Virus record (IMG/VR): IMGVR_UViG_3300020446_000079
Coordinates: 1-23,803 of that record
DNA from: a virus
Length of the DNA: 23,803 nt
Direction: 5' to 3' (one strand)
In this document: piece by piece, positions 7,601 to 23,741 of the stretch
How the letters are laid out: each line of letters begins with the position of its first letter
How positions within the stretch are numbered: the first letter of the stretch is position 1
Made by a program: the position numbers and the translations under genes
Notes under the pieces: model-generated
Database searches by the model: none
What the model was told of the DNA's origin: nothing
The model's input: the letters and a program-made list of their open reading frames with translations, nothing else

Positions 7601-10600
7601 GGAACGATTGCAAATGGTCTTTCTACAACCACACAGTATGCAGTTAGAGTTATAGACAGCAATAGATTTAGATTATGTGATGTAGGTGTCTCATCACAGA
7701 GAGATTTGACCAATTACAACAAAAACAAGCCTGTTGTGATTCGTGGATTTGGTTCTGGTAAGCATACTATCAAATATCCACCTATTGTTATCAATGTAGA
7801 GAGTTTATCTGCTATCGGTAGCACAACTATCATCAAACCAGAGATAGAACCTATAGTTCTTGGTGAAATCGAAAGTGTTTTCCTAGAAGAAGGTGGTGTT
7901 GGTTATGGTTGTACTAATATCATGGATTTCCATAGAAGACCCGATGTTGGTATCTCAACTGTTGTATTCAAAGCACTATTAAAACCAATTATCATTGATG
8001 GATCGATTGTAGACGTTCAAATCCTTGCTTCTGGTAAAGGATACCGTGAAGATTCCGATATTAACATCTTCAGTCCAACTGGTAGCTTTGCAGACATCAA
8101 ACCTCTTGTCTCTGGCGGTAAAATCACTGGTGTAAGTATTCTTGACGGTGGTATTGGTTATGGATCAAGCGATACGACTTTAGATTTACAAAACAGAGGT
8201 AAATCTGCTAAATTCATTGCAGACGTTCGTGAATGGAAGATAAACCAAGTTCAAAAGAACACTGCCATCATTAGTGACGAAGATTCGCTACTTACTAAAC
8301 CAAGTACTAACCCTGCCTTCCAATTACAGACAATTGGTATCTATCCTCCACAAAAACTTAGATTCCAACTTGGAGATAACATTGATGCTGGTAACTTAGA
8401 GACACCTAACGCTTTCCACTCTCCTATTCTTGGATTTGCCTATGATGGCAACCCAATTTACGGTCCTTATGGATATCAGACTCCAACAGGAGGAGCAATC
8501 AAAAGATTACAGTCTGGTTTCATTCTTGACACCACTCTAAGATCGGGTATAAGACCTCCTGGCTTTGCTTTTGGATATTTCACCAATGATTACATCTTCG
8601 ACAACTCAGGAGACCTAGACGTACACGGTGGACGCTATTGTGTGACTCCACAGTACCCAGATGGAGTATATGCTTACTTCTACAGTGTAGATGTTGATTC
8701 CAGTGGTGTTGCTAAACCAAAATTCCCATATCTGGTTGGAAACTCATTTAAAGACACTCCAATCGAAGAAAACTTCGTAACTTTCTTCAATCAGGACATT
8801 GATATCTCATCTAGAGATCTTACAAGAAACGTAGCTCCATATTACCTCTCATTTGGTAATTCTGACTATGAATTGATTGATGATGTAAAGGATGCTCTAA
8901 AACAAGAGTTTGAAGTCTTAAAAACAAAGAGTTCTGGTATTTCTTCCGTAACAATCTTCTCTAGAGGTGATGGATACAAAGTAGACGATGTTTTAGAGTT
9001 AGACAACTTTGGAACTAATGGAACTGGCGCTAATATCGTAGTTGGGTCTGTTTTAGGTAAACCAATCACTACAGTACAGATAGGAGTTACTACTTTTACT
9101 AATGTAGAGCTTGTAAAAGATAAAAACAGCATTGTTGGTATTACAAGTGTTCCACATGAAATTACAGACGGTGAAACAGTTGTATTAAGTGGTATTAGCA
9201 CTGCCTCCTTTGCAGAGTTCAATGGACCTAAGAAAATTAGTGTATTTAACAAAACTTCTGGTCTTGCTGTTGAATTAGGTGACTTATCTGCTACAGGGCC
9301 TAGTACATCTATTTTTGTAACTGATGTAAGTGGTTTTGAAGTAAATGACACCATAGGAATTGGAACTGAGTCATTTACTATCACTGCCATTGATGAACAG
9401 TTCTCTAGGTTCTTTGTAAACAGAGAAAGCTTTGTTGGTGCTGCCTTTACTCATGGTGTAGGTACAGATAACATTATTCTTAAACCTAAGAAGTTTACAT
9501 TCCCAGTAGGAGTCTCTACAGTGATGAGATTCACTTTTGAGAATACTATCACCTATTTCAATCCACAACAGACAGTTGGTGTTGGATCTACTGGTACACA
9601 CTACACTTTACCTCTTACTGGTTTAAGCACAGTACAAACAATAGAAAATAGGTTTGTTCCTCAACAAAGAATCTTTATCAAAGATCATACGTTCTTTACT
9701 GGCCAGAAACTAACCTATAATATGGGTATTGGTGGAACTTCCCTTGTGTGGGCTAAAGTATCTGCTGGTGCCACATCTGGTGTCGGTACAGAAGTCCTTC
9801 CGAACAATGGTGATGTATATGCCATCAATTTTGAACCCGACTATATTGGATTGTCTACAATCGGTATTCCAACCACAGGTGATGCCGTATGGTTCTATAA
9901 TCTAGCATCAAACTCTGGATTCGCACATTCCTTCACAACTAACTTCCCTAAAGTTACAAGTAGAGTAGAAAGGTTCTTTGGTGAAGTTGGAGTTACATCT
10001 GCTCATGGATTACTTACTGGAGATGTAATTACTTTAGATGCACTTCCAAAATCTAGTGAAACTGTTGCAGTCAGGTATGATCCAGTAATTGCTAAAATTA
10101 CAACTGAAAAAATTGGTTTTGCTGTATCAGCCTTCTCTGCTGACTTAACTGAGATTACAATATTAGATGAGTCACTACAGAGTGGCGATAAAGTCGTTTA
10201 TTATGACAATGGTAACACTATTGATGGTTTGATCAATAATGAGACCTATTTTGTTCTTAGAGAAAGTGTTGATGCAATTCAACTCTGTAAGTACAAGTCA
10301 GATGTTGTTGATGCAAACCCTGTTGGAATTACATCAGTAACAGAAGCGTCTGCCAACAACAAGAGTTTTATTGCCAAGATAAATCCACCTCTAGAGTTTA
10401 CTACTGGTAATACAATTACATTTGATGTATCTGATCCAAGTTTGTTGGATATGAAACTAGACTTCTTTGATGATATTAATTTCAAAGAAAGACTTGATGT
10501 AACTGGTACAAACGCTACTGGATTTAACATCACAAGAAGTGATGTATCAGGAAATGCAAATGCCACTGTAACTATCAACACAACAAATAGTTGGCCAGAG

Positions 10601-13600: not shown

Positions 13601-13687
13601 TTCTATTATGATACTAACAGAGTTAACTCAAGTGTTACCTCAGTTGACAGTCAATTGGTGACTATGGATGATAACCCTCCATATTAA
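4673..13687 (+). CDS. Giant baseplate wedge protein, gp7-like with a huge repeat-rich insertion, 3004 aa
   Basis: A virion structural protein. Two short segments resemble neighbouring parts of the T4 gp7 C-terminal region. One is AKDFYMSKGTDSSYQILFK at residues 194 onward (T4: SYDFYSTKGIEASYKFLFK). The other is SIKSKLPYDTWK...VHPSGF at 2438-2461 (T4: KIKSNLPSSRWK...VHPVGF). Between them lie about 2,200 residues of beta modules. An ITYTAKT/FTGCARG module is at about 67-125, inside the gp7-like N-terminus. Around ten GxGY repeats are present (for example PGIGYQEKP near 793). A YHYH-type domain at about 1240-1360 contains GFAYDGNPIYGPYGY and RYCVTPQYPDG. Near the C-terminus a module is duplicated (about 2706-2870), followed by LIDNIIQTP at 2898. 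T4 gp7 has about 1,030 residues. It directly follows gp6, as gp7 does in T4. The virion assignment is firm; the gp7 label is inference. Confidence 0.9.
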   Translation: MTDIKRVKVSHVIQSQIPEFLNEESPLFASFLNQYYASQEHSSGVTDLANNLPEYRKIGAFNNETLVTTTTLTSNLFAGSTTINVESTVGWPDTYGLLKIDNEIITYTAKTATSFTGCARGFSGIDQISKEDDAEFLSFTSTTANQHLTGATVTNLSNLFLQTFFTKFKEEFLPGFENRNFITGTSVTNILTRAKDFYMSKGTDSSYQILFKLLYGEDIELLKPIEQTLVPSANVYFKTKHVLLENLTPGAQPLESIGNFLYQDVSGIGTVSASIYNVEYRPINQTDFYEMSLDSTSFDGIFQVPGKTKALEETVEAAESLVVDSTVGFGQSGTLLVRPRAGSNFITLRYTDKTVNQFLNVTGVTTSLVFGADVLENKLAYAYAGFGQTSLMEFRLVNVIDQVDTTQSTNMQIGDNLKLLSFGRDLGNLPQFNNWIYNIPSSHSIASINQVNVNTYRLKLFDAIVFYVDEVLRLRNDAGDEINVTVKDIEYDATNLSKVYSNTIVIQTTGAVPTDVTIITKTVTKAEHNSNYFTGVDQFPVGIQNSYLDKQEEFFYVTSSGLPNYPVFATDNKVFVKSSTIEVTDGFGTPLNGGGFTYTIRSFDPTNVTLATPPPLNHNYVTGDKIYWDNTTNSGINTGVYFVTAINQTEFYLSFSGADVFSKKYIAVRTGTSGQFIYKSGWENKTLRNQKILRKYPFYKQKNLFDDPNKRQVNNRAVGLMANGVEIFPPTVFDEQIFHGNITEIKVTNSGQDYDVITGPPLVINDPQGFGASAHANVSGSFREVKLVTPGIGYQEKPKITVSGGNGTGAVLESNLVRGSIVVNFKADGTSVDTFDESVLFPERHNFEEGEAIVYDSRGNPPIVNIVDGSTYYAGIVNEKRIKLYKTSEDAKVGINTVDIGNISFGFHKFTSLQAKNTITRIYVKNPGSGYSNKKIIVQGRSVDGDTQSGISTSDDYILAYNHNFNNGEIVEYSTDGTIANGLSTTTQYAVRVIDSNRFRLCDVGVSSQRDLTNYNKNKPVVIRGFGSGKHTIKYPPIVINVESLSAIGSTTIIKPEIEPIVLGEIESVFLEEGGVGYGCTNIMDFHRRPDVGISTVVFKALLKPIIIDGSIVDVQILASGKGYREDSDINIFSPTGSFADIKPLVSGGKITGVSILDGGIGYGSSDTTLDLQNRGKSAKFIADVREWKINQVQKNTAIISDEDSLLTKPSTNPAFQLQTIGIYPPQKLRFQLGDNIDAGNLETPNAFHSPILGFAYDGNPIYGPYGYQTPTGGAIKRLQSGFILDTTLRSGIRPPGFAFGYFTNDYIFDNSGDLDVHGGRYCVTPQYPDGVYAYFYSVDVDSSGVAKPKFPYLVGNSFKDTPIEENFVTFFNQDIDISSRDLTRNVAPYYLSFGNSDYELIDDVKDALKQEFEVLKTKSSGISSVTIFSRGDGYKVDDVLELDNFGTNGTGANIVVGSVLGKPITTVQIGVTTFTNVELVKDKNSIVGITSVPHEITDGETVVLSGISTASFAEFNGPKKISVFNKTSGLAVELGDLSATGPSTSIFVTDVSGFEVNDTIGIGTESFTITAIDEQFSRFFVNRESFVGAAFTHGVGTDNIILKPKKFTFPVGVSTVMRFTFENTITYFNPQQTVGVGSTGTHYTLPLTGLSTVQTIENRFVPQQRIFIKDHTFFTGQKLTYNMGIGGTSLVWAKVSAGATSGVGTEVLPNNGDVYAINFEPDYIGLSTIGIPTTGDAVWFYNLASNSGFAHSFTTNFPKVTSRVERFFGEVGVTSAHGLLTGDVITLDALPKSSETVAVRYDPVIAKITTEKIGFAVSAFSADLTEITILDESLQSGDKVVYYDNGNTIDGLINNETYFVLRESVDAIQLCKYKSDVVDANPVGITSVTEASANNKSFIAKINPPLEFTTGNTITFDVSDPSLLDMKLDFFDDINFKERLDVTGTNATGFNITRSDVSGNANATVTINTTNSWPEKTFYALTPVVPSDNRKLYGSSDTDVTGRNNITFKNTVLKTQHSIIEKDDKTFTFNLVEKPPETQKLISRIGVSTITYSTESKNARGPIDSTKINFPGKGYTVLPRVIGFASTQGQDGIVKVSSPEIGQIDTIERIKDGFDYPTDPTLLPFLSVPAIVDISGIARMDEIQVVDGGVRYNQPPTLAVRGNDKVEIEATISGGSVDKVLILKNAFEFSEPLSIITTNNSNGYDIDAISHSGTTVTAELLLDAQFNQPVTTGFGSTDTKLPFAIGDKVFVENCRLKPNSLLLGEGNFNSSDYDFSFYTVTGVNTVNATVTFDMSSAPGISTVTLGSYDDDFTLGSLVNFNDMAKFNMTIIDDAKFSSGEKVTSRAFEGFVVENGWNGKISQLRLRDTIGTLIPGDTLYGEVSQLLGRVRDVNRFSVRTTLGVTRDKVSKNDMNVGILNDFSQRISDNFYFQKFSYSIKSKLPYDTWKEPVKSIVHPSGFLEFSDLIVESDSKKDAEELVNVGIAKSINMKVQAVDTKVDLVINIDNEIYMGKRDNFAMVTEDDQLPNGSVQRIFFPEGRPIKSFIMNKTNKVLNLDDISSGFNGTHDRTGTLVGSKQFGLSVGGVPCFKKSFNAAASADVDLALNIISIQNHNFQTGQAVILDTQGGDKIGIGTTSHTTGTRDIIMAVKTSGVGGSAMYENGYNIQIPGPVTGTAVTENPPGPLFRLYGFGMAEGGVPGISTRGSGATFQVRFDFDGGTGQCIGTAVVLTNGGTGYFVTDNVSIAGTYLGGATPANNLTFPVTKTTGSAAGISTVYTDVPSTVPEFGGTGATFNITRDSNLDVTNVEVVNGGTGYAATNIISIAGTYIGGTTPTNNILLSPVELGTDIMPERLFIQKVDDVKFRIAGLSTSLPFQFTGLGTGTQILKVAEPNKQALILIDNIIQTPLSNKRLSVEVADAVGPGDQGISITTGISSISKGDVIKLDDELLKVIQVGDSTFAQARNALANSTVATDFYYDTNRVNSSVTSVDSQLVTMDDNPPY
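12788..13206 (+). repeat. Diverged tandem duplication of a Gly-rich beta module inside the 3004-aa protein
   Basis: Two copies share the order G(S/T)GATF, NGGTGY, (S/I)IAGTY(L/I)GG, TP(A/T)NN. They begin at residues 2706 and 2790, and the NGGTGY elements lie 237 bases apart (12869 and 13106). The copies differ at many codons, so the duplication is old or under diversifying pressure. Confidence 0.7.
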
Positions 13688-13688
13688 C

Positions 13689-13696
13689 TATAAATA
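13689..13696 (+). promoter_or_regulatory. Exact late-promoter box TATAAATA
   Basis: All eight bases match the T4-type late consensus. It lies right after the stop of the 3004-residue gene and 20 bases before the ATG of the gp9-like gene. Its leader contains the 12-base palindrome AAAAACGTTTTT (13700-13711). It probably starts a separate late transcript for the gp9-like protein and the second giant. Confidence 0.7.
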
Positions 13697-13716
13697 AAGA
13701 AAAACGTTTTTAAGTA

Positions 13717-14739
13717 ATGTCTAAACAAGGGATTAGTACAGGTTCGGCTCCGAATGATGGGACGGGCGATACCCTATTGGCAGGGACTATTAAGATTAAT
13801 AATAACTTCAATGAGATATATGATGTTTTTGGAGATGGATCTAACCTTGTAAGTTTTGTTTCTTTTGCTAGTACTGCTGGGTATTCTACAAACTGCGGTA
13901 TTGCATCAACTTCCGTTCTTGCTGGTCTTGCAGCAAGTGTTACAGATAATATCGATATCAATACATCTGGTGTTGTAACATCAAGTTATGCTGACATTGG
14001 TAAGATTACAATTCAACAGCCTGGTGCGATTACAGATGGTCCAATAGAAGTTGGATTTGCTGCAACAATGTTCCGTATCAAAGCTGATGGTATGGTCGGC
14101 ATTGGAACTTCTCTACCTACATCACAGTTAGAAGTCGCATCATTCTCAAACGAAAGACCTACTATTTGGGCAGTCGCTAAAGGTAATGCACACGGATTGC
14201 GAGTATCCGATGCAGCAGTATCAGATAATAAGTCGTTTGTTGTTACTAATGAAGCCTACACTGGTATTGGTTCTACTGCTCCCACATGTAGATTAGACGT
14301 TCAAGGTGATGTTCTGGTCAGTGGTGCAAGTACTTTAATGGATCAGGTCAACTTTAACTCTGACATTACAGAGAAAGTTGTAGGAAACTTTAGTGATACA
14401 TTAGCTGTCAGTGCAGGCGGTACGTTTACCTTTGATGTTTCACAAGGATCGGTTGTTCTTGGTGGAATAACAACAACTGTTACCAGCTGGGATTTTACAA
14501 ATGTCAATGGACAAAATGGTAAGGCAACCACAGTCACACTTATCAACAATGCTGGAACTGGTTACACATACGGAGACGCATGTAGAGTAAACGGTGCTGC
14601 TATTGCAAACGGTGTTAAGTGGGTTGGTGGTAATCCTCCTCCATCCACGAATAATGATGATATTTTGACGTTCAGTATTGTTCGTGATAACACTGGTGTT
14701 ACCAGAGTATATTGCAGTAGTTCTATCAACATCATATAG
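13717..14739 (+). CDS. Baseplate wedge / tail-fibre connector, gp9/gp10-like, 340 aa
   Basis: Probably sits on the outer baseplate and connects it to fibres or spikes. Residues 5-44 read GISTGSAPNDGTGD...KINNNFNEIYDVFGDGSN. This matches the N-terminal attachment motif found in both T4 gp9 and gp10 (STGD/DGTGD, KINxxF, Y, GDG). The rest is unlike T4 gp9 (288 residues). It contains two fibre-like signatures, VGIGTSLPTSQLEV at 127-140 and GIGSTAPTCRLDV at about 183-195, typical of trimeric phage fibre shafts. The C-terminal domain has NNAGTGYTYGD and GGNPPPSTNND, ending in ILTFSIVRDNTGVTRVY. The gene lies between a gp7-like giant and a second giant, in the place of gp9 in the T4 order. Whether it is the gp9 or gp10 equivalent cannot be decided here. 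A late-type box is just upstream. Confidence 0.85.
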   Translation: MSKQGISTGSAPNDGTGDTLLAGTIKINNNFNEIYDVFGDGSNLVSFVSFASTAGYSTNCGIASTSVLAGLAASVTDNIDINTSGVVTSSYADIGKITIQQPGAITDGPIEVGFAATMFRIKADGMVGIGTSLPTSQLEVASFSNERPTIWAVAKGNAHGLRVSDAAVSDNKSFVVTNEAYTGIGSTAPTCRLDVQGDVLVSGASTLMDQVNFNSDITEKVVGNFSDTLAVSAGGTFTFDVSQGSVVLGGITTTVTSWDFTNVNGQNGKATTVTLINNAGTGYTYGDACRVNGAAIANGVKWVGGNPPPSTNNDDILTFSIVRDNTGVTRVYCSSSINII

Positions 14740-14743
14740 AGGA
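14738..14743 (+). promoter_or_regulatory. Strong Shine-Dalgarno AGAGGA for the second giant
   Basis: AGAGGA overlaps the stop codon of the gp9-like gene and precedes the ATG at 14748 by four bases. It fixes that start and suggests a high, coupled translation rate, unlike many starts in this window that have no evident ribosome site. Confidence 0.65.
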
Positions 14744-14747
14744 ATAA

Positions 14748-17700
14748 ATGTCAACAAGAGTTACGCCAGGATCAGGAGCTCTATTCAGACCGTCATTTAA
14801 CTCAGTATATGGTGTGTCTGGAATTGAAGTTTTAGATGGAGGTGCAGGGTATGCTAAAACCGATCCTCCAAAGATCATCATACAGGGAACAACTAGTCCT
14901 ATACAGGAGGGTGTATTCTATCCTGTAATTAGTGGTGTTGGAACTATATCCGAAGTTATTATATTCAAGGCTGGTGTTGGATATTATCCTGTTTTCAGTA
15001 CAAGTAGCACTTCACAAGTTGTTGTAGAAAGAGGTGCTTTTGGATCAGTATCTACAAGTCATGGCACTGGTTTATCATCTGTATTCTCAGGTGATTACAA
15101 TATCGTAGATGATTCAATATTTTTCAGTGATGCACCATACGGTAAAGCAGGCCCTATTGGATTAGAAACTAGTTCTTCTTTCTCTGGTAGATTATTCTCT
15201 AGAAAGTTAGATCCGTTTGATGCAAAAGATACTAACGTAATTCTTGACGATATATCTTTAGAATTTACAGGTATTGCAGGGACACAGTTTACTGTTACTG
15301 AGAATAATGGTATTACCACTGCTTTGTACAACAATGTTAATACTGGCGTAGATATCAATAATAATCCATTCATATTAATCAACAATATTGTTCAAACTCC
15401 TGGCTTAGATTTTGAAGTTGTAAATGATAGTGCTAACGCAATAAACTTTTTAAGTGGAGTTCCCAGAGCTGGTAGAATTAACAAGGTAGGATTACAAACA
15501 GGTGCTGGTTATTACCTACCACTCAAAGCAGCTGCAAGAGTTGGTGTAGGAACAACTGGTAGTGTAGAATTTTTACAATTAGAAGGGAAAGGACAAGGAT
15601 ATAGAGAAATACCAGAAATAAGCGTAAGATCATCTCAAGGTATTGGTGCAAGTATCAGAGCTGTATTAGGAACATCATCAGGAAGTTCTGTTGCTATTTC
15701 CACCGCAGACTATAACCATCTTACTGGTATTTGTACATTCAATACTGGTGCTTCATCACATGGTTTTGTGCAAGATGATAGAGTAAGGATTACAGGTGCT
15801 GGATTTACATTCACTCCAGTATCGGCGCTAAGAAATATTAATACTTTTGGTTACGATTACATAACTGGTATCACAACTATTGGTGTAACAGGTGGACATT
15901 ATCTTGGAACTTCTACTAACCAAAGTAGAAGTGTCTTAGTAAAAGAAGTACAGGTTACAAACGGTATAAGCACATTTTTGTTTAGAGAAGACGCATATCC
16001 TATTGTAGAAATAATTGACAGTCTAAACGTATTGGTAGATTGCGGTGTTAGTACGCAAGCACTAGCATATGTTAGCGGTGGTCTAGTGCAGGCAGGCGTG
16101 GACACTGCAATCTTAGAAGGTAAAAATGAAATTGGTTTTGATGTATTAAGTGGACATACTACAAATACATTCAGAGCATTTGTTGGTGTCTCTACATTTG
16201 CACATAATTATGTGAGTGGTGGTGTAGTAAACAGAGCAGAAGCGGGTATCATTACAAGTTTCCAAATCGTAGAAGGTGGAACTGGATATTACATTCCAAG
16301 ATCGATATCACATGTTGACGGAACATTCTCAAATGGTATTACAACTATCACTGCTTATGGTGCTCAGAGTGGAAGTAGTATTGACATATCACAAGTAGAT
16401 TATGAGCCATTCGCTGGTATTGCAACTATTCATGCTTCATCAGCTCATGGATTGTCAACCGCAAGTGTTGTCAAGATAACTGGTATTAAATTTGATACAG
16501 GCATTGGTGAGATTACATTCCCATCAGATACACAACAATATTTTGGTGTCACTGGTATCCTAAGTGCAAAGAACTTCACTGTGAATATTGGTATGGCAGT
16601 GACCACAACAGGTATCCATACTGCAACTGCTGGAGTAGGTTCATTCATACCTTTTGAGGGTCATGGTTTAGAAACTGATGACTTTGTAAATGTAACTGGT
16701 GTTGCTGCAACATTTACCAGTGCTCCTGCCGTCCAAGTTGGTCATGTTGAGTATGATGAGACATCTGGAATTGCAACTGTTGTAACTAGGAAAAATCACA
16801 ATCTTGAAATAGATGATTGTGTTATACTTTCTGGTATTGCCTTTACTTGTGATTACGACCCTGCTCTAGGAGTTTCTAGTGCATTGTATGACAACATAAC
16901 TGGTGTTCTTACAGTCACCACTGCAGCACCTCATGGATACAAGGTGGGTAAGGATGTTATCATGTCTGGTCTTGCATTTACATGTGCTTTAGACGGTGGT
17001 GCATACCAACACTACTATCCAAGAAGTAGATCAACTGCATATGATACTTCTATTCCAATTACAGGATATGCTGGAACTGGACTTTCAATAGATGTAGGCA
17101 TATCCCGTGTCAAGAATCAATATGTTCATAGATTTGAAGAAGCAGTCTCTGGTGCAATCATATATGGTGGAGATTATCCTCACCAATTTATCCGTGCTGA
17201 AGAGGGTGCATTACTAACTGGAGGACCTTTCTTACATGAGTTCCACAGTGCAACCGCAACATCTACATTTGCTGGTGGTGACTACCCACACACATATGTA
17301 AGTTCTGATGAAAAAACAATCAAGATTGGTGGTGATTATGCACACACATTTGTAAGTGCAGATACTAATGCAGTTCAGATAGTTGGCGGATCACAGATTA
17401 CACCAACTGACGCTGATTATACTCCTAGCACTGGTTCATTGATATTGACCCTTAATGGTCACGGTTTAACAGGACCTAGTCAACACTCACTCACAACCGC
17501 TAACTATAACCCAATCGTAGGTATCTTAACTCTTACAGTTCCTAGTCATGGATTTGCAAATGGCGACATGGTTAGGATTGCAGATGGTTCTATCGGTTGG
17601 AAGTGTTCATTGGATCAATATACATCAACAAAATATTATCCAAGAACCACTGATCCTTTAAGTAATAATTGGGTTCCTATCAGTAACGTTCAGACCAACA

Positions 17701-20700
17701 CATTCGAGGTCTTTGCTGGTATTACTACTAGAGTTGATTACACCGTGTCTGGGGCGGATTATACACCGTCTGTAGGTATCATGACAATGAGTATCGGAGT
17801 TCATGACCTAGAAGTAGGACAAAGTATTAAGATGAGAGATAGTTCACTCGGATTTACTTGTACTGCTGACCAAAACACTGCAATCAAATACTATCCAAGA
17901 TCCAAAGACCCAATCTACAACACTGCTGTTCCAATTACAGGTGTGGCTGGAACAACTATTACAGTATTTGCTGGTATCTCAACCATAGTTCCATATAACA
18001 TTAGGTTTGCAGATTATACACCAGCAGTGGGTATCATGACTGTCTCTCTTGACAGACTACATGGTTTCCAAGTTGGAGAGAGTATCAAGTTCAAACCTGG
18101 CGCACTTGGATTTAGATGTGAACAGGATGGTTTCCAAACCAGTCACTTCTATCCAAGACCACAAGACCCTTACTATGATAAACCAGTAAGTATTGTTAGT
18201 TGTGCTGGTACAATATTCACAGTTGACGTTGGAGCTACTGGTGGAGCAAACATATATCAATTCATACCAAACCAAGGTGTGGCAGTTGGTGGTGTTCTTG
18301 CTGGTGGTGATTATCCATACACTCTAGTTGGTGTTGGAACTGATGCAGTTATTACTGGTGGTGGAGACTACGGCCCATACTGGTATCAAAATTCTACAAC
18401 TGGTGCAATCGAAAGACCAACTCAACAGGTTCAGATTGCAGAAGGTTCTTTGAACTTCAAGTGTGCTAAAGATAACTATGCAACTGTTCATGCTTATCCT
18501 CGTAAGACAGACCCAGCATACAACGTTAATCTAGGTATAGTTTCTGCAACTACAAATAACTTTGAGGTAAGAGTAGGTCCTTCCACAATACAGGAACGTT
18601 CTATATCAACATCCACATACAATGCTGCTACAGGTGAACTTGTATTGAATGTTGGTGCTGGACACTCTTATTACGATCACTCATCTCACACAATTTCGAC
18701 GGCAACGTATAATGCTAGTACTGGTGTACTAGAACCAACCATTGCAAATCATGGTTTCGTTGCTGGTGAGTATGTCAAGTTTGATTTAGAATCAATTTCA
18801 TTCAAATGCGATCTAGATGGATATACTGCAACTAAGGCATATCCAAGATACTCTGATCCATTCTTGAATGAGTGGCTACCAATCTATCATGTTGGTGTCA
18901 ATACATTCTCTGTAAATGTTGGTGTATCTACTATTGTAAATGCACACTGGTTCCAGAGTGCAACTACTGGTGGTCTTAAGAAAGCCAGAGACACTGTTGG
19001 TATCAATACTGCATCTATAAGGTTCACATGTGCTAGAGATAATCATGCGACAGAACATGCCTATCCTCGTCCTGATGACCCAATCGGTGGCAATGCTTCT
19101 GTTGGTATTGGTTCTACATCTGCCGATACCATAACAATCAACGTTGGTGTATCTACAATAGTCAATTACGGTATCACTACTGCAGCCTATACTGCAAGTA
19201 CAGGTATCATGACCGTGTTCTCTAATGTTCACGGATTTAATGGTGCTTTACCCAAGAGTGTAGAATTTGCAACTTATGATGCTGGATCTGGTATTATGAC
19301 TTGTACTGTTTCTAATCACGGAATGGTAACTGGTAATAGAGTTCAGTTTGCAAGAGGTTCCATCAGATTCAGATGTATGATGGATCAAAGAAAGACTATC
19401 AAGGATTACCCAAGAAGAAAAGATCCAGCAGATCAACAGTGGTTATCAATTACTACTGTAGACTTAGATAACTTTAGTGTGAATGTAGGAACATCACCTC
19501 TTGTTTATCACAGTCCTACAAGCGGATCATATGATCCTTTCACTGGATTGATGACTATAGACATTGGTTCCCACACACTACAAAAAGGAACTGGTGTAAA
19601 ATTAAAAACAAGAGGATTCAAATTTACCTGTGCCTTAGATAACCATGCGACAAATCACTTCTACCCAAGGGCAAGCGGCATATCTGGCCCAGATCCTGCT
19701 TATAATACTTCTGTTAAGATTACTGCTACTACAGATACCACCATTACTCTGGACGTAGGTAAGTCATCTAACCAATCTGAACATATCTTTGTTTCTGCTG
19801 TTGCAAACTCAGTCATCAGTGGTGGAGATTACAAGCATACATTTGAGAACGCAGACCTCGATGGAATGTTGATTGCTAGAGATACTGTTGGACTTGCAAC
19901 AAACTCATACACATGGAGATGTAGTCAGGACAACTATGCCACAGACCACACATATCCTAGAACAACTGATCCAATACACGACATAGAAGTTGGTATTGTT
20001 ACCTCAACAATAGACACATTCACAATCAACGTTGGTATTACGTCTAGAGTTAAGTTCAATGTAACTAATGCAACCTATGACGCAAACAGTGGATTGGCAA
20101 CAATTACCACAGATACAGCTCATGGACAAACAACTTTAACATCAGTTGGTTTAGTAACAGGTGGATTGGTTTACTCTTGTTCTATGGATCAGTATGCAAC
20201 AGAGCATCCATATCCTAGAACAACTGACCCTGCACATGATACTGCATTATATCCTACTGCTGTTACATCTAACAATATCACTTTGAACGTTGGTGTTTCT
20301 ACTAGAGTGGAGTATGACGTTAACCATGCAGACTACAATGAGTCTATTGGTATCATGACTGCATATCTACCTACGGTTCATGGTATTACAACTGCTGCTG
20401 GTGTTGGTAGAAATGTCAAGTTGAAAACTGAATCTATATTATTCTCCTGTTCTCAGGATAACTACACCACAAAACAATTCTATCCAAAAGGCGGAGATCC
20501 TTACTACAATGGATCTATAATTACTAGGGTTATTAATAACACTCAAATTGAAACTCAGGTAGGCCCATCTACTACACCTAGTTTCTACAACTCAGGTGGT
20601 AAGATTCAAGGTGTTATACTTGCTCCTAGATTGAGAAATAACTCTCCAAGTGGTGAAGACTTTGCATCTGGCGGTACGTTTGTAGATAAAATTATTGACA

Positions 20701-23700
20701 GTAAAACTTACGTTGTAAACGTAGGTATTTCTACAGTGGATCACAACTATGCTAGGGGTGGTATTTCACAACAAGGTAAGAGAATCTCATCTTCTATAGA
20801 AAAAGGATTCTCTGGATTTGATGTTATTGAAAAAATAGATGCTGCGAAATTCAGAGTCGATGCTGGTCTTACAACCGAAAGATCTATCTTCAAGAGAGGC
20901 GGTAGAGTTGACAAACCAGTGTTTGTTGACATTGCAGAACCAAACGGATACTTCAACAGAGATCTTGAATACATCTCAGGAACAACTGGCATTGGAACAA
21001 ATGCAGTTGTCAACCTCCGTGTGAATGTAGATGGTAACATTGCAGAATTTGATCTTATCGAAGAGGGAGTTGCATACAAGAACGAGGATAAACTAACTGT
21101 ATCTGGTATTGCGACTGACCCAAGAGTAGGCGTTCTAACTGAGTTCCAACTAACAGTTACAGAACTTGAGAATGATACATTCTCTGGATTCTATCCAGGC
21201 CAGTTCATTCTGTTTGATGATATCTCCTCATTCTTCAACGGTGTTCGTACTAAGTTTACTTTATCTGTAACAACTGCTGGTGTCACAGAGATCTTAAGTC
21301 TTAAGACTCTGCCTGGTAGTGACATGGATATTACAAACAACATATTCATTTACATTAATGATATCTTACAGACTCCACAATCATCTTACACATTCAAAGG
21401 TAGTAGAGTCATCTTCACTGAAGCTCCAAAACCAAACTCTAAGTGTTCTGTATTCTACTTCAGAGGATCTAAGAGAGATGTTGAGACTGTTGATCCAGTT
21501 GCATCATTGAAGCCTGGTGATGTTGTTAGAATTAAGGAAAACAGAAATGATCCTCTAGACAGAGATCAGTTTGAAAGAACATCTAAGAGAATAGTCGCTT
21601 CTGATGTTCTAGAAACATTCTCTTACAACAGTGTCGGTATTGATACTGCTGCTGATGCAGAGAGACCATTATCATGGGAAAAACAAAGACAAGATCAGAT
21701 TCTCTCTGGTGTTCTAATATCAAAAGCTAGACCAGCCTTGAAGGGTAGAGTTCTACCTACAACTAGACTTATTAGGAATGTTGGTCAATTAGATGATAGT
21801 TTCTATGTCAACAACGCTTTCCCTGTATTCACTGCAATTGATAAGTTGATACAGTCAGAAAGAAACATTGAAATATTTGAAGATGTAACTGTAGAGCCTG
21901 GAATTGTTACATCTCTAGTTTCTACATCATCTAGTATCTCATCTTTGACAATCGCAGATGCTGGATCAGGATATGTAAATATATCCAATCCAACTGTTGC
22001 AATATCCAGTTCGTTGATCAAACGTAAAGATCCTATCTCTGCATGGGAGTTCGATGCTATCACTGGTATAACATCTGCTATTGAATTTAACGCAATATCT
22101 AAACAAGACCCATACGTCGCTGTTGGATCAAGTAGTTTCTACATGAATACTAAGAGTGGTACGTTCTGGGAGAGAGGTAGAATTGGATTTGGTGGAACTG
22201 TCACATTCAATGGTGTTGGTGTAGGTAATACCGTCTTTAGTCCCGATGTATATGTTGTGGCGGTTGGTGATTATGGATCTATAGCGAGAGCAGTTGCGAT
22301 TGGTAACAGTATCAGTTCATGGACTCCTTTAACACTACTAGAACAAAGACAAATACCCGCTATCGCACAAATTAGTACATTCCCAAGTACATACGAGGGC
22401 AATTTCCAAGATGTAATTTGGGAAGGAACTAGAAATACATGGGTTGCAGTTGGTGCTGCTGGATCTATATTTACTGCTGTGGGTATGACAACTGATGCTG
22501 CATACAGTCAGTTCTCAGGAACACTACAACAACTTAATGCAGTGTGTTACGGTCAATCAGAATACATTGCAGTTGGTAATGGTGGTGCTATCATTGCTTC
22601 TAATGACGGAACAGGTTGGTCTGACAAAGTAAGTAATACTGTCAACGATCTAAATGATATCATCTATGATGGTAATAGATTTATTGTTGTGGGTGACAGT
22701 GGAACTATTGGTATTTCTACTAATAAAAACTTCTGGCAACCTTGGAGTCAACAACTACCAGCTGGAACACAACACCCTGCCACATTTGACTTTGCTAAGA
22801 TTAAGTTCTTTGACAACATCTACGTTGGTATCAGCACAGTTGGTCAACTATATTACTCATTTGACCTTGCTAACTGGAACTTAAGAACTATTTCTCATCC
22901 TAATGAGATCCGTGACCTTGTACAAACACCTTATGGTGACTTTGCAAGTAATAGAGTTATCACAGTTGGATCTGGAACCACAACATTCTATGCAGATCCA
23001 GTTCTCAATAGAGCAACAGCTGAAGCATCTGCAACTGCTGGAATTATCACATCAGTCACAGTTACTAATGGTGGATTTGGATATGATGTTGGTAGTTCAC
23101 CTCCAGTTATTGTGGAATCAGATAAGACTAAGAGTGAAAAAATATTCTCGGTTGATTCAAAAGGAGACTTTGGTGACATTGTAGGAATAAATACATGGCT
23201 ACCAGGCTCAGGTGCAAGACTCCCACAGTTGGAGTTTACACTCAAGTCTCAGTTTAATGATAACTCAAACTTGGGTTATGGTTACTCCTCACTAAATCAA
23301 CTCGGAGTTGAATACAGTGGTCTGCAAAAAGGCGACTTCTTTACAATCTACGATAGTTCATTAGTTGTTGGTCACGCACTAACAGGTATTACTACCGCTA
23401 GTGGTTCACAAGAAGTTGTCGGTATGGTTACTGCTGGTGATTATCTTGGTGGTGTATTCAGAGTTGAAGTAGTAACAACAGGAGACTCTGTTTCTGGTTT
23501 AGTCACAGTCAGATGTGCTTTTGAACCAGGCCCTGTAACTCTAGGTAACAATACAATTCACGTTGGTATTGCTGGAACCTCTAATGTTGATACATTCTGG
23601 GGTAAATATAGTTGGGGACAATTCTTTGGTTATCAGAATCGTGGTGCTGGTAATCCAACAGATTTCGTTGTCAATCCAATGAACGGTAATACTGGATTAT

Positions 23701-23741
23701 CCACAGCTGCTGTAGTATCCAGATTAAAACCATTAACTTAA
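14748..23741 (+). CDS. Giant repeat-rich virion structural / probable host-facing tail protein, 2997 aa
   Basis: Probably a fibrous or rim component of the baseplate or tail; no enzymatic motif is visible. Residues 1-700 hold GxGY-type beta repeats, a LINNIVQTP module at about 209, and repeats of the type (A/D)YxxxTGxxT...HG. Residues about 701-1918 form an array of units with the core (F/W/Y)xC..D....YPR..DP followed by a VGxST strand. Within it, at 792-881, are five 18-residue units built on (Y/F)xHxF...GGD. A linker at about 2140-2450 contains YINDILQTP, VIFTEAPKPNS and WEKQRQDQILSG. Residues about 2454-2745 show some seven units of the form VxVGxxGxIxxSxDGxxW, predicted to be a beta-propeller. 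A glycine-rich C-terminus ends VSRLKPLT. There is no signal peptide or membrane segment. It shares modules with the 3004-residue protein and follows the gp9-like gene with a strong ribosome site. Confidence 0.85.
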   Translation: MSTRVTPGSGALFRPSFNSVYGVSGIEVLDGGAGYAKTDPPKIIIQGTTSPIQEGVFYPVISGVGTISEVIIFKAGVGYYPVFSTSSTSQVVVERGAFGSVSTSHGTGLSSVFSGDYNIVDDSIFFSDAPYGKAGPIGLETSSSFSGRLFSRKLDPFDAKDTNVILDDISLEFTGIAGTQFTVTENNGITTALYNNVNTGVDINNNPFILINNIVQTPGLDFEVVNDSANAINFLSGVPRAGRINKVGLQTGAGYYLPLKAAARVGVGTTGSVEFLQLEGKGQGYREIPEISVRSSQGIGASIRAVLGTSSGSSVAISTADYNHLTGICTFNTGASSHGFVQDDRVRITGAGFTFTPVSALRNINTFGYDYITGITTIGVTGGHYLGTSTNQSRSVLVKEVQVTNGISTFLFREDAYPIVEIIDSLNVLVDCGVSTQALAYVSGGLVQAGVDTAILEGKNEIGFDVLSGHTTNTFRAFVGVSTFAHNYVSGGVVNRAEAGIITSFQIVEGGTGYYIPRSISHVDGTFSNGITTITAYGAQSGSSIDISQVDYEPFAGIATIHASSAHGLSTASVVKITGIKFDTGIGEITFPSDTQQYFGVTGILSAKNFTVNIGMAVTTTGIHTATAGVGSFIPFEGHGLETDDFVNVTGVAATFTSAPAVQVGHVEYDETSGIATVVTRKNHNLEIDDCVILSGIAFTCDYDPALGVSSALYDNITGVLTVTTAAPHGYKVGKDVIMSGLAFTCALDGGAYQHYYPRSRSTAYDTSIPITGYAGTGLSIDVGISRVKNQYVHRFEEAVSGAIIYGGDYPHQFIRAEEGALLTGGPFLHEFHSATATSTFAGGDYPHTYVSSDEKTIKIGGDYAHTFVSADTNAVQIVGGSQITPTDADYTPSTGSLILTLNGHGLTGPSQHSLTTANYNPIVGILTLTVPSHGFANGDMVRIADGSIGWKCSLDQYTSTKYYPRTTDPLSNNWVPISNVQTNTFEVFAGITTRVDYTVSGADYTPSVGIMTMSIGVHDLEVGQSIKMRDSSLGFTCTADQNTAIKYYPRSKDPIYNTAVPITGVAGTTITVFAGISTIVPYNIRFADYTPAVGIMTVSLDRLHGFQVGESIKFKPGALGFRCEQDGFQTSHFYPRPQDPYYDKPVSIVSCAGTIFTVDVGATGGANIYQFIPNQGVAVGGVLAGGDYPYTLVGVGTDAVITGGGDYGPYWYQNSTTGAIERPTQQVQIAEGSLNFKCAKDNYATVHAYPRKTDPAYNVNLGIVSATTNNFEVRVGPSTIQERSISTSTYNAATGELVLNVGAGHSYYDHSSHTISTATYNASTGVLEPTIANHGFVAGEYVKFDLESISFKCDLDGYTATKAYPRYSDPFLNEWLPIYHVGVNTFSVNVGVSTIVNAHWFQSATTGGLKKARDTVGINTASIRFTCARDNHATEHAYPRPDDPIGGNASVGIGSTSADTITINVGVSTIVNYGITTAAYTASTGIMTVFSNVHGFNGALPKSVEFATYDAGSGIMTCTVSNHGMVTGNRVQFARGSIRFRCMMDQRKTIKDYPRRKDPADQQWLSITTVDLDNFSVNVGTSPLVYHSPTSGSYDPFTGLMTIDIGSHTLQKGTGVKLKTRGFKFTCALDNHATNHFYPRASGISGPDPAYNTSVKITATTDTTITLDVGKSSNQSEHIFVSAVANSVISGGDYKHTFENADLDGMLIARDTVGLATNSYTWRCSQDNYATDHTYPRTTDPIHDIEVGIVTSTIDTFTINVGITSRVKFNVTNATYDANSGLATITTDTAHGQTTLTSVGLVTGGLVYSCSMDQYATEHPYPRTTDPAHDTALYPTAVTSNNITLNVGVSTRVEYDVNHADYNESIGIMTAYLPTVHGITTAAGVGRNVKLKTESILFSCSQDNYTTKQFYPKGGDPYYNGSIITRVINNTQIETQVGPSTTPSFYNSGGKIQGVILAPRLRNNSPSGEDFASGGTFVDKIIDSKTYVVNVGISTVDHNYARGGISQQGKRISSSIEKGFSGFDVIEKIDAAKFRVDAGLTTERSIFKRGGRVDKPVFVDIAEPNGYFNRDLEYISGTTGIGTNAVVNLRVNVDGNIAEFDLIEEGVAYKNEDKLTVSGIATDPRVGVLTEFQLTVTELENDTFSGFYPGQFILFDDISSFFNGVRTKFTLSVTTAGVTEILSLKTLPGSDMDITNNIFIYINDILQTPQSSYTFKGSRVIFTEAPKPNSKCSVFYFRGSKRDVETVDPVASLKPGDVVRIKENRNDPLDRDQFERTSKRIVASDVLETFSYNSVGIDTAADAERPLSWEKQRQDQILSGVLISKARPALKGRVLPTTRLIRNVGQLDDSFYVNNAFPVFTAIDKLIQSERNIEIFEDVTVEPGIVTSLVSTSSSISSLTIADAGSGYVNISNPTVAISSSLIKRKDPISAWEFDAITGITSAIEFNAISKQDPYVAVGSSSFYMNTKSGTFWERGRIGFGGTVTFNGVGVGNTVFSPDVYVVAVGDYGSIARAVAIGNSISSWTPLTLLEQRQIPAIAQISTFPSTYEGNFQDVIWEGTRNTWVAVGAAGSIFTAVGMTTDAAYSQFSGTLQQLNAVCYGQSEYIAVGNGGAIIASNDGTGWSDKVSNTVNDLNDIIYDGNRFIVVGDSGTIGISTNKNFWQPWSQQLPAGTQHPATFDFAKIKFFDNIYVGISTVGQLYYSFDLANWNLRTISHPNEIRDLVQTPYGDFASNRVITVGSGTTTFYADPVLNRATAEASATAGIITSVTVTNGGFGYDVGSSPPVIVESDKTKSEKIFSVDSKGDFGDIVGINTWLPGSGARLPQLEFTLKSQFNDNSNLGYGYSSLNQLGVEYSGLQKGDFFTIYDSSLVVGHALTGITTASGSQEVVGMVTAGDYLGGVFRVEVVTTGDSVSGLVTVRCAFEPGPVTLGNNTIHVGIAGTSNVDTFWGKYSWGQFFGYQNRGAGNPTDFVVNPMNGNTGLSTAAVVSRLKPLT
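16848..20501 (+). repeat. Array of Cys/YPR/DP protein repeats
   Basis: Thirteen copies of an FxC-type core occur, with the cysteine at residues 701, 746, 953, 1038, 1124, 1239, 1354, 1428, 1543, 1628, 1725, 1811 and 1901. Twelve of them have the following YPR (or YPK) and most have DP. Examples are FTCTADQNTAIKYYPRSKDP and FKCDLDGYTATKAYPRYSDP. Copies are strongly diverged at the DNA level, so this is a protein repeat and not a recent DNA duplication. Confidence 0.9.
17121..17390 (+). repeat. Five tandem copies of an 18-residue repeat
   Basis: Exactly 270 bases encode five 18-residue units (residues 792-881): YVHRFEEAVSGAIIYGGD, YPHQFIRAEEGALLTGGP, FLHEFHSATATSTFAGGD, YPHTYVSSDEKTIKIGGD and a final YAHTFVSADTNAVQIVGG. 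Each has an aromatic, then His, another aromatic and a closing GG. The unit recurs singly or in degenerate form elsewhere in the same protein, for example near residue 1700 (HIFVSAVANSVISGGD). Confidence 0.9.

Follow-up and report, generated by a model that had tools for sequence, protein, structure and literature searches.

The stretch of viral DNA analysed here, positions 1 to 23,803 of the IMG/VR virus record IMGVR_UViG_3300020446_000079 (23,803 nt; hereafter the window), carries a cluster of genes in the order gp25, gp6, a giant protein of 3004 amino acids (aa) with a YHYH domain, a 340-aa gp9/10-N protein, and a second giant of 2997 aa (14748..23741), which is the subject of this study. 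The last open reading frame (ORF) encodes, wholly within itself, an array of Cys/YPR repeats. All features of this ORF described below lie on the plus strand. The 2997-aa protein, here the array protein, is an ortholog of SSSM7_103 of Synechococcus phage S-SSM7, which is annotated as gp7, the baseplate wedge initiator. The two proteins share 79.5% identity over all 2997 residues, and SSSM7_103 also contains 12 units whose intervals each deviate by no more than 2 residues from those of the window, with nothing substantial differing between them.

Twelve cores of approximately 56 residues, with the consensus FxCxxD...H/K.YPRxxDP...TFTVNVG, are found in the array. The motif C..D.{7}YP[RK] occurs 12 times in the protein, whereas 2000 shuffles contain it 0.0005 times on average. 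An iterated 56-position unit profile likewise detects 12 copies of 54–76 bits each, and it gives no match at E 1e-3 on the reversed protein or on 200 shuffled copies. The profile-matched cores lie at 16965..17132 (unit 1, C746), 17586..17753 (unit 2, C953), 17841..18008 (unit 3, C1038), 18099..18263 (unit 4, C1124), 18444..18611 (unit 5, C1239), 18789..18956 (unit 6, C1354), 19011..19181 (unit 7, C1428, without a preceding Y....G hairpin), 19356..19523 (unit 8, C1543), 19611..19790 (unit 9, C1628, with a five-residue insertion within YPR..DP), 19902..20069 (unit 10, C1725), 20160..20327 (unit 11, C1811) and 20430..20597 (unit 12, C1901, with YPK). The cysteine spacings listed in the initial annotation (45, 207, 85, 86, 115, 115, 74, 115, 85, 97, 86 and 90 residues, counted from C701) are reproduced exactly, provided that two extra in-range cysteines outside the series, C1152 and C1519, are omitted. 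C701 ends an 'AFTC' strand that is followed by another hairpin, and it lacks the YPR element; the array therefore comprises 12 units, and the thirteenth copy counted from C701 is dropped.

The cores are separated by three kinds of linker, which were delineated by sequence pattern. A single hairpin, Y....G...HG...G..V, is associated with the intervals of 85, 86 and 90 residues. Two hairpins occupy the 115-residue intervals before unit 6 (Y1291 and Y1321; 18609..18788) and unit 8 (Y1481 and Y1510; 19179..19355), and a third pair (Y891 and Y920; 17409..17585) lies before unit 2 inside the 207-residue interval, downstream of a linker with GGDYPH/GGDYAH-type repeats (17133..17408). Linkers of the third kind have no hairpin and consist of GGDYPHT-like or other sequence; they are found in the 115-residue interval before unit 5 (GGDYPYT and GGDYGPY; 18264..18443), the 74-residue interval before unit 7 and the 97-residue interval before unit 10, where a GGDYKHTF element is present (19791..19901). 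The doubled 30-residue submodule proposed for the intervals 1239–1354 and 1428–1543 is indeed present in both, but its pattern, (T/S)xxYxxxTGxxxxxxxxHG, is literal in only two of the four copies (1321 and 1481), while those at 1291 and 1510 fit loosely as judged by eye; the loose pattern has 14 sites in the protein. Because the 1124–1239 interval lacks a doubled hairpin, a spacing of 115 residues arises in two ways and does not mark one kind of unit. The two block sizes of the initial proposal are correct as numbers. By its sequence pattern, the array is modular, composed of a core and interchangeable hairpin linkers.

The stepped spacing characterises the family as a whole, since the same clusters recur among 266 intervals between non-redundant units of related loci: 84–91 residues (79 intervals), 72–79 residues (33) and 113–119 residues (27). 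The two clusters recognised at the outset, 85–90 and 115, are therefore family-wide, and the one at 72–79 had gone uncalled. A tree of the units groups units 2, 6 and 8 (support 86/87) and units 5, 7 and 10 (98/92). A duplication of a two-unit block (units 5–6 and 7–8) was considered for the 115/74/115 series, but the pairs are not singled out by their identities and the idea remains a hint. Tandem Repeats Finder reports no tandem array in the repeat stretch, and the DNA repeats listed there are short and diverged. When the whole protein was aligned with itself by BLAST, no off-diagonal alignments were reported, probably because such alignments were culled as contained in the full-length self-match, and a unit-by-unit comparison was used instead.

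Among 307 units less than 80% alike, every residue in the cysteine column is Cys and every residue in column 19 is Pro, followed by D10 (91%), Y18 (90%), D23 (90%) and R20 (89%); position 16 is either His (61%) or Lys (33%). When the cysteine column was masked and a looser search was performed, 1853 Cys, 4 Ser and 78 gaps were recovered (units not de-replicated). A second cysteine is not conserved within the unit. The nearly invariant cysteine would most likely be a structural residue of the loop. Lys16 is accompanied by a hairpin just upstream in 75 of 81 units and His16 in 69 of 110 (Fisher p 1e-6, overstated because the rows are kin), and the expected coupling of K16 with W29 is absent from the units compared.

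To follow the array among close relatives, orthologs were collected with six peptide patterns, three of which lie inside the array; this favours loci that keep those peptides, and 80 of 142 relatives were kept. The comparison covers 77 related loci whose best segment is 68–100% identical to the window. The profile finds a unit-bearing ORF in 75 of them and none in locus L076; ORFs with ambiguous bases (locus L014 and the giant of L085) were left out of the profile counts, and L014 has 12 units by motif. The canonical order is retained within 11 residues per interval at 69 of the 75 loci, three loci show one unit, and the remaining three differ only in the interval that follows the first unit, which is itself cut by the contig start. 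No gained or lost unit is found among the 72 multi-unit loci. A motif search also returns uniform counts and spacings across the covered loci, with the strict motif missing one unit in a few. In 36 full-length 12-unit ORFs (2995–3005 aa), 418 of 420 comparisons place the positional ortholog first; the window units always served as the reference, and near-duplicates were included (de-replication at 97% identity leaves 23 of the 36 orthologs). Both exceptions occur in L057, with a diverged unit 2 (identity 0.49) and a one-residue offset.

Mean pairwise identity is 0.83 for the array and 0.81 overall. In the twelve closest pairs, the ratio of non-synonymous to synonymous substitution rates (dN/dS) is 0.06–0.16 for the array and 0.12–0.17 for the C-terminal flank, with the array lower in 10 of the 12. 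Judged by these ratios, the array is under purifying selection. Of five segments compared, aa 328–639 (15729–16664), located before the array, varies most, with an identity of 0.73 and a dN/dS of 0.19–0.27; by this measure, host-facing variation would more plausibly be sought there than in the array.

Between lineages, the number of units differs widely. ORFs that lie off the locus edges contain 0 (DSL-LC03), 1, 5, 7, 9, 11, 12 or 16 units, and ORFs cut by an edge contain 18 to 28, which are lower bounds. S-SCSM2R has 1 unit, S-RIM44 has 5, P-SSM2 has 9 and Sf-FS3 has 7 or 8 depending on the threshold; cut ORFs give at least 18 units in P-RSM6, at least 3 each in P-RSM1 and ACG-2014d, and at least 28 in two viral contigs. 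Copy number in related phages, a comparison raised by the initial annotation, is thus variable between lineages and unchanged in the 72 multi-unit loci of the clade of the window. The giant gp7-type proteins of P-SSM2, S-SCSM2R and DSL-LC03 are collinear homologs of the two giants of the window, but form one ORF instead of two. In the window lineage, this ORF is split in the region 13640–14950, with the gp9/10-N protein between the two parts.

The array is placed between conserved flanks. Within the N-terminal flank (aa 62–327; 14931..15728), aa 87–327 are collinear with aa 2982–3222 of the DSL-LC03 protein and aa 62–315 with aa 3427–3686 of the S-SCSM2R protein, while the C-terminal flank (aa 2057–2997; 20916..23738) is collinear with aa 3231–4107 of DSL-LC03. 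In that single ORF, only 8 residues separate the two flanks, and no unit is detected at E 1e-3, which indicates that the array is an insert between conserved domains or has been lost there. A tblastn search with three units matches 239 of 50,697 phage records, all of which are named Synechococcus, Prochlorococcus, Cyanophage or Marine virus. Further matches of the unit fall in ACG-2014e and S-CAM4 genes whose annotation is short tail fibre (KJ019054.1, NC_031900.1). In the plus frames of the stretch 20000–60000 of the S-PM2d record, the unit profile has no match, and nothing was therefore drawn from a coevolution study that reports single-nucleotide polymorphisms in structural genes of S-PM2d (PMC9910659).

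To characterize the fold of the unit, two pieces of the array were modelled with AlphaFold2. The alignments consisted of the window piece with 50 of 422 candidate windows (A2, 51 rows) or with 31 of 1415 matches (A3). Model 1 covers three consecutive units (aa 884–1172; 51 rows) with a mean predicted local distance difference test score (pLDDT) of 89.1; it consists almost entirely of beta structure, and a helical turn of three residues is located at each cysteine. Foldseek with model 1 returns 38 viral predicted structures at E ≤ 0.001, cyanophage structural proteins among them. When the models were compared with the Protein Data Bank (PDB) by VIA-align, the beta-barrel of phage endosialidases (phi92 4hiz, K1F 3ju4/1v0e; PF12195) ranked first for both, with 69–80 aligned residues: 4hiz gives Z 7.2 for model 1 (69 aligned, root-mean-square deviation (rmsd) 1.8) and Z 8.2 for another unit in model 2 (aa 1165–1640; 78 aligned, rmsd 2.2). 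The FCCH domain of ubiquitin-activating enzyme E1 (PF16190; 6dc6) follows in both cases (Z 6.5 and 7.7), and barrels of EF-Tu and riboflavin synthase also match. In each barrel match, about 22–30 residues of the spanned range are unaligned, and these are likely the Cys/YPR loop and linker in the models. As far as the predictions can tell, the unit thus probably folds as a beta-barrel into which the Cys/YPR stretch is inserted. The endosialidase barrel is part of a tailspike enzyme and not of an array, and the E1 FCCH is a eukaryotic enzyme domain.

Several results weigh against this fold assignment. The predicted template modelling score (pTM) of model 1 is 0.57, so the arrangement of the units is not fixed by the model, and model 2 has a pLDDT of only 69.5. 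Z values of 7–8 are common among small barrels, and Foldseek with model 1 finds no PDB match at E ≤ 0.001. At the profile level, E1_FCCH matches the HG...G..V hairpin of the three-unit piece weakly, with E 0.044 and 14.3 bits, far below the gathering cut-off of 29.5, and 2 of the 51 alignment members; the whole array protein reaches 10.9 bits, likewise short of this cut-off. End_beta_barrel (PF12195) matches 3 of the 51 members (best E 0.017) but not that of the window, the window units have no significant sequence match to this barrel, and nine window units scanned singly match neither family. Fn1_2 matches more members (20 of 51, best E 0.0013), and the Pfam families that match at least one of the 51 members with E ≤ 1 number 43 and disagree with one another; they include DUF7243 (6 of 51, best E 0.00079) and HYR (1 of 51, E 1.4e-05). 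E1_FCCH and End_beta_barrel were weighted over the other families by choice, since the fold searches named both. Sequence searches of the PDB reveal no relative and NCBIfam gives no match; a match to iota-carbonic anhydrase (E 4.6e-05) resolves into three weak local alignments and was regarded as coincidental.

The location of the protein is suggested by gene context and annotation. The upstream gp25 and gp6 are assigned by PHROG matches in the window; gp8 is the next gene downstream in S-SSM7 and Sf-FS3 and is expected past the end of the window here, and both giants are annotated as gp7 in S-SSM7. The best PHROG match of the array protein (P0001) is phrog_2885, 'baseplate wedge subunit' (E 1.5e-146; E 0 for P0002). 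By homology and context, the array protein is a baseplate-cluster protein of a T4-like cyanophage. Other evidence counts against this reading. The array protein also matches phrog_5342, named tail fiber (E 8.7e-119), and a PHROG named virion structural protein is among its matches as well. According to PMC7029224, T4 Gp7 is absent from cyano- and pelagimyophages; 'gp7' is therefore used here as a label and not as demonstrated homology. The array protein is also unmentioned in the section of PMC3037559 on S-SM1 virion proteomics, and no experiment placing it in a virion was found in the literature consulted. In addition, PHROG 1276 (function unknown, 325 positions) matches 11 stretches of the array protein (E 3.9e-91, best at aa 906–976) and apparently holds the Cys/YPR repeat.

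Taken together, we favour, with modest confidence, the interpretation that the array is an expandable, lineage-fixed barrel arm inserted in the baseplate giant of a T4-like marine cyanophage. Twelve small beta-barrel domains would form a string within the C-terminal half of the protein, each built from a Y....G...HG...G hairpin or a substitute, the F.C..D...[HK].YPR..DP segment and a closing V.I...TFTVNVG strand pair, and the additional hairpins and GGDYPHT elements that lie between units would account for the stepped spacing. Context, size, predicted fold and slow evolution suggest that such an array serves as an elongated arm or spacer at the baseplate periphery. Its reach may have been determined lineage by lineage, as units were duplicated or lost, and would now be held by purifying selection. 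Of the length-tuned fibre offered in the initial annotation, the difference in length between lineages holds, but the fibre itself is not shown; the context is that of the baseplate cluster, although one matching PHROG is named tail fiber.

The main rival explanation, which we regard as unlikely but by no means negligible, is that the barrels are glycan-binding modules, which would make the array a multivalent surface that binds carbohydrates and aids adsorption to the host envelope. According to a preprint (PMC12632334), K1F has three sites that bind polysialic acid, and the endosialidase barrel, the best structural match here, is one of them; PMC7029224 describes unassigned structural proteins in the same operon that contain domains for carbohydrate binding and host recognition. 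However, likeness of fold does not show binding, the barrels of E1, EF-Tu and riboflavin synthase match too, and the array is not hypervariable by its identity and dN/dS values, with the most variable segment preceding it. A recombination-prone surface array with drifting copy number, as the initial annotation offered, is largely refuted for the clade of the window and highly improbable. Its appeal lies in the copy number, from 0 to at least 28 between lineages, and in the strongly diverged unit 2 of L057, which could be a replacement; the fixed order in the 72 multi-unit relatives, the purifying selection and the positional best matches argue against it, as do the short, diverged DNA repeats.

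Two further alternatives concern the loop residues. After release, the lone cysteines might engage in inter-chain disulfides or some other covalent bond, so that the baseplate would be locked in its extended state. The near-complete conservation of the cysteine would fit such a role, and all tail components of phage Milano are reported to be crosslinked by disulfides, with some bonds requiring reduction for contraction (PMC10811340). We nevertheless consider the idea improbable: odd unit counts (1, 5, 7, 9 and 11) in uncut ORFs speak against within-chain pairing as a rule, the unit lacks a second conserved cysteine, and a buried structural cysteine explains the conservation equally well. It is similarly doubtful that the cysteine makes a redox-sensitive or covalent contact in the assembled particle, by which an array of one to more than two dozen such thiols would give the baseplate a tunable lock or spring. 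The recurrence of C, D and H in the loop would also be compatible with a metal site or a Cys-His-Asp catalytic site in each unit, but the replacement of His by Lys in about a third of the units is unfit for a catalytic His or a usual metal ligand and makes this possibility very remote.

Outside the array, three observations concern the giant proteins. The upstream giant contains the YHYH domain at aa 1249–1341 (8417–8695; Pfam PF14240, E 5.6e-19), which has been proposed to be a metal-dependent hydrolase (PMC7824862). The first ~117 aa of the downstream giant resemble the N-termini of post-gp9 proteins in ACG-2014d, P-RSM6 and P-RSM1. Repeated AVG..G elements at 22215–22910 (aa ~2490–2720), part of the DNA repeat family D2, may form a small beta-propeller.

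The Cys/YPR repeat is real, widespread and without a described function, and it is unnamed in the titles and abstract openings of the top-ranked open-licence literature. It is ordinary in that small beta domains follow one another within a large structural protein of a phage; the nearly invariant lone cysteine, the clean insertion and the lineage-fixed number are its unusual traits. The giants of the baseplate cluster in these cyanophages range from 3000 to more than 5000 residues, and the repeat provides a parts list for them. Constructs for structural work can be defined from the unit, the barrel fold that it probably has and the way in which it is inserted between the flanks, and the question of why these proteins are so long becomes testable as unit number versus reach, host or tail geometry.

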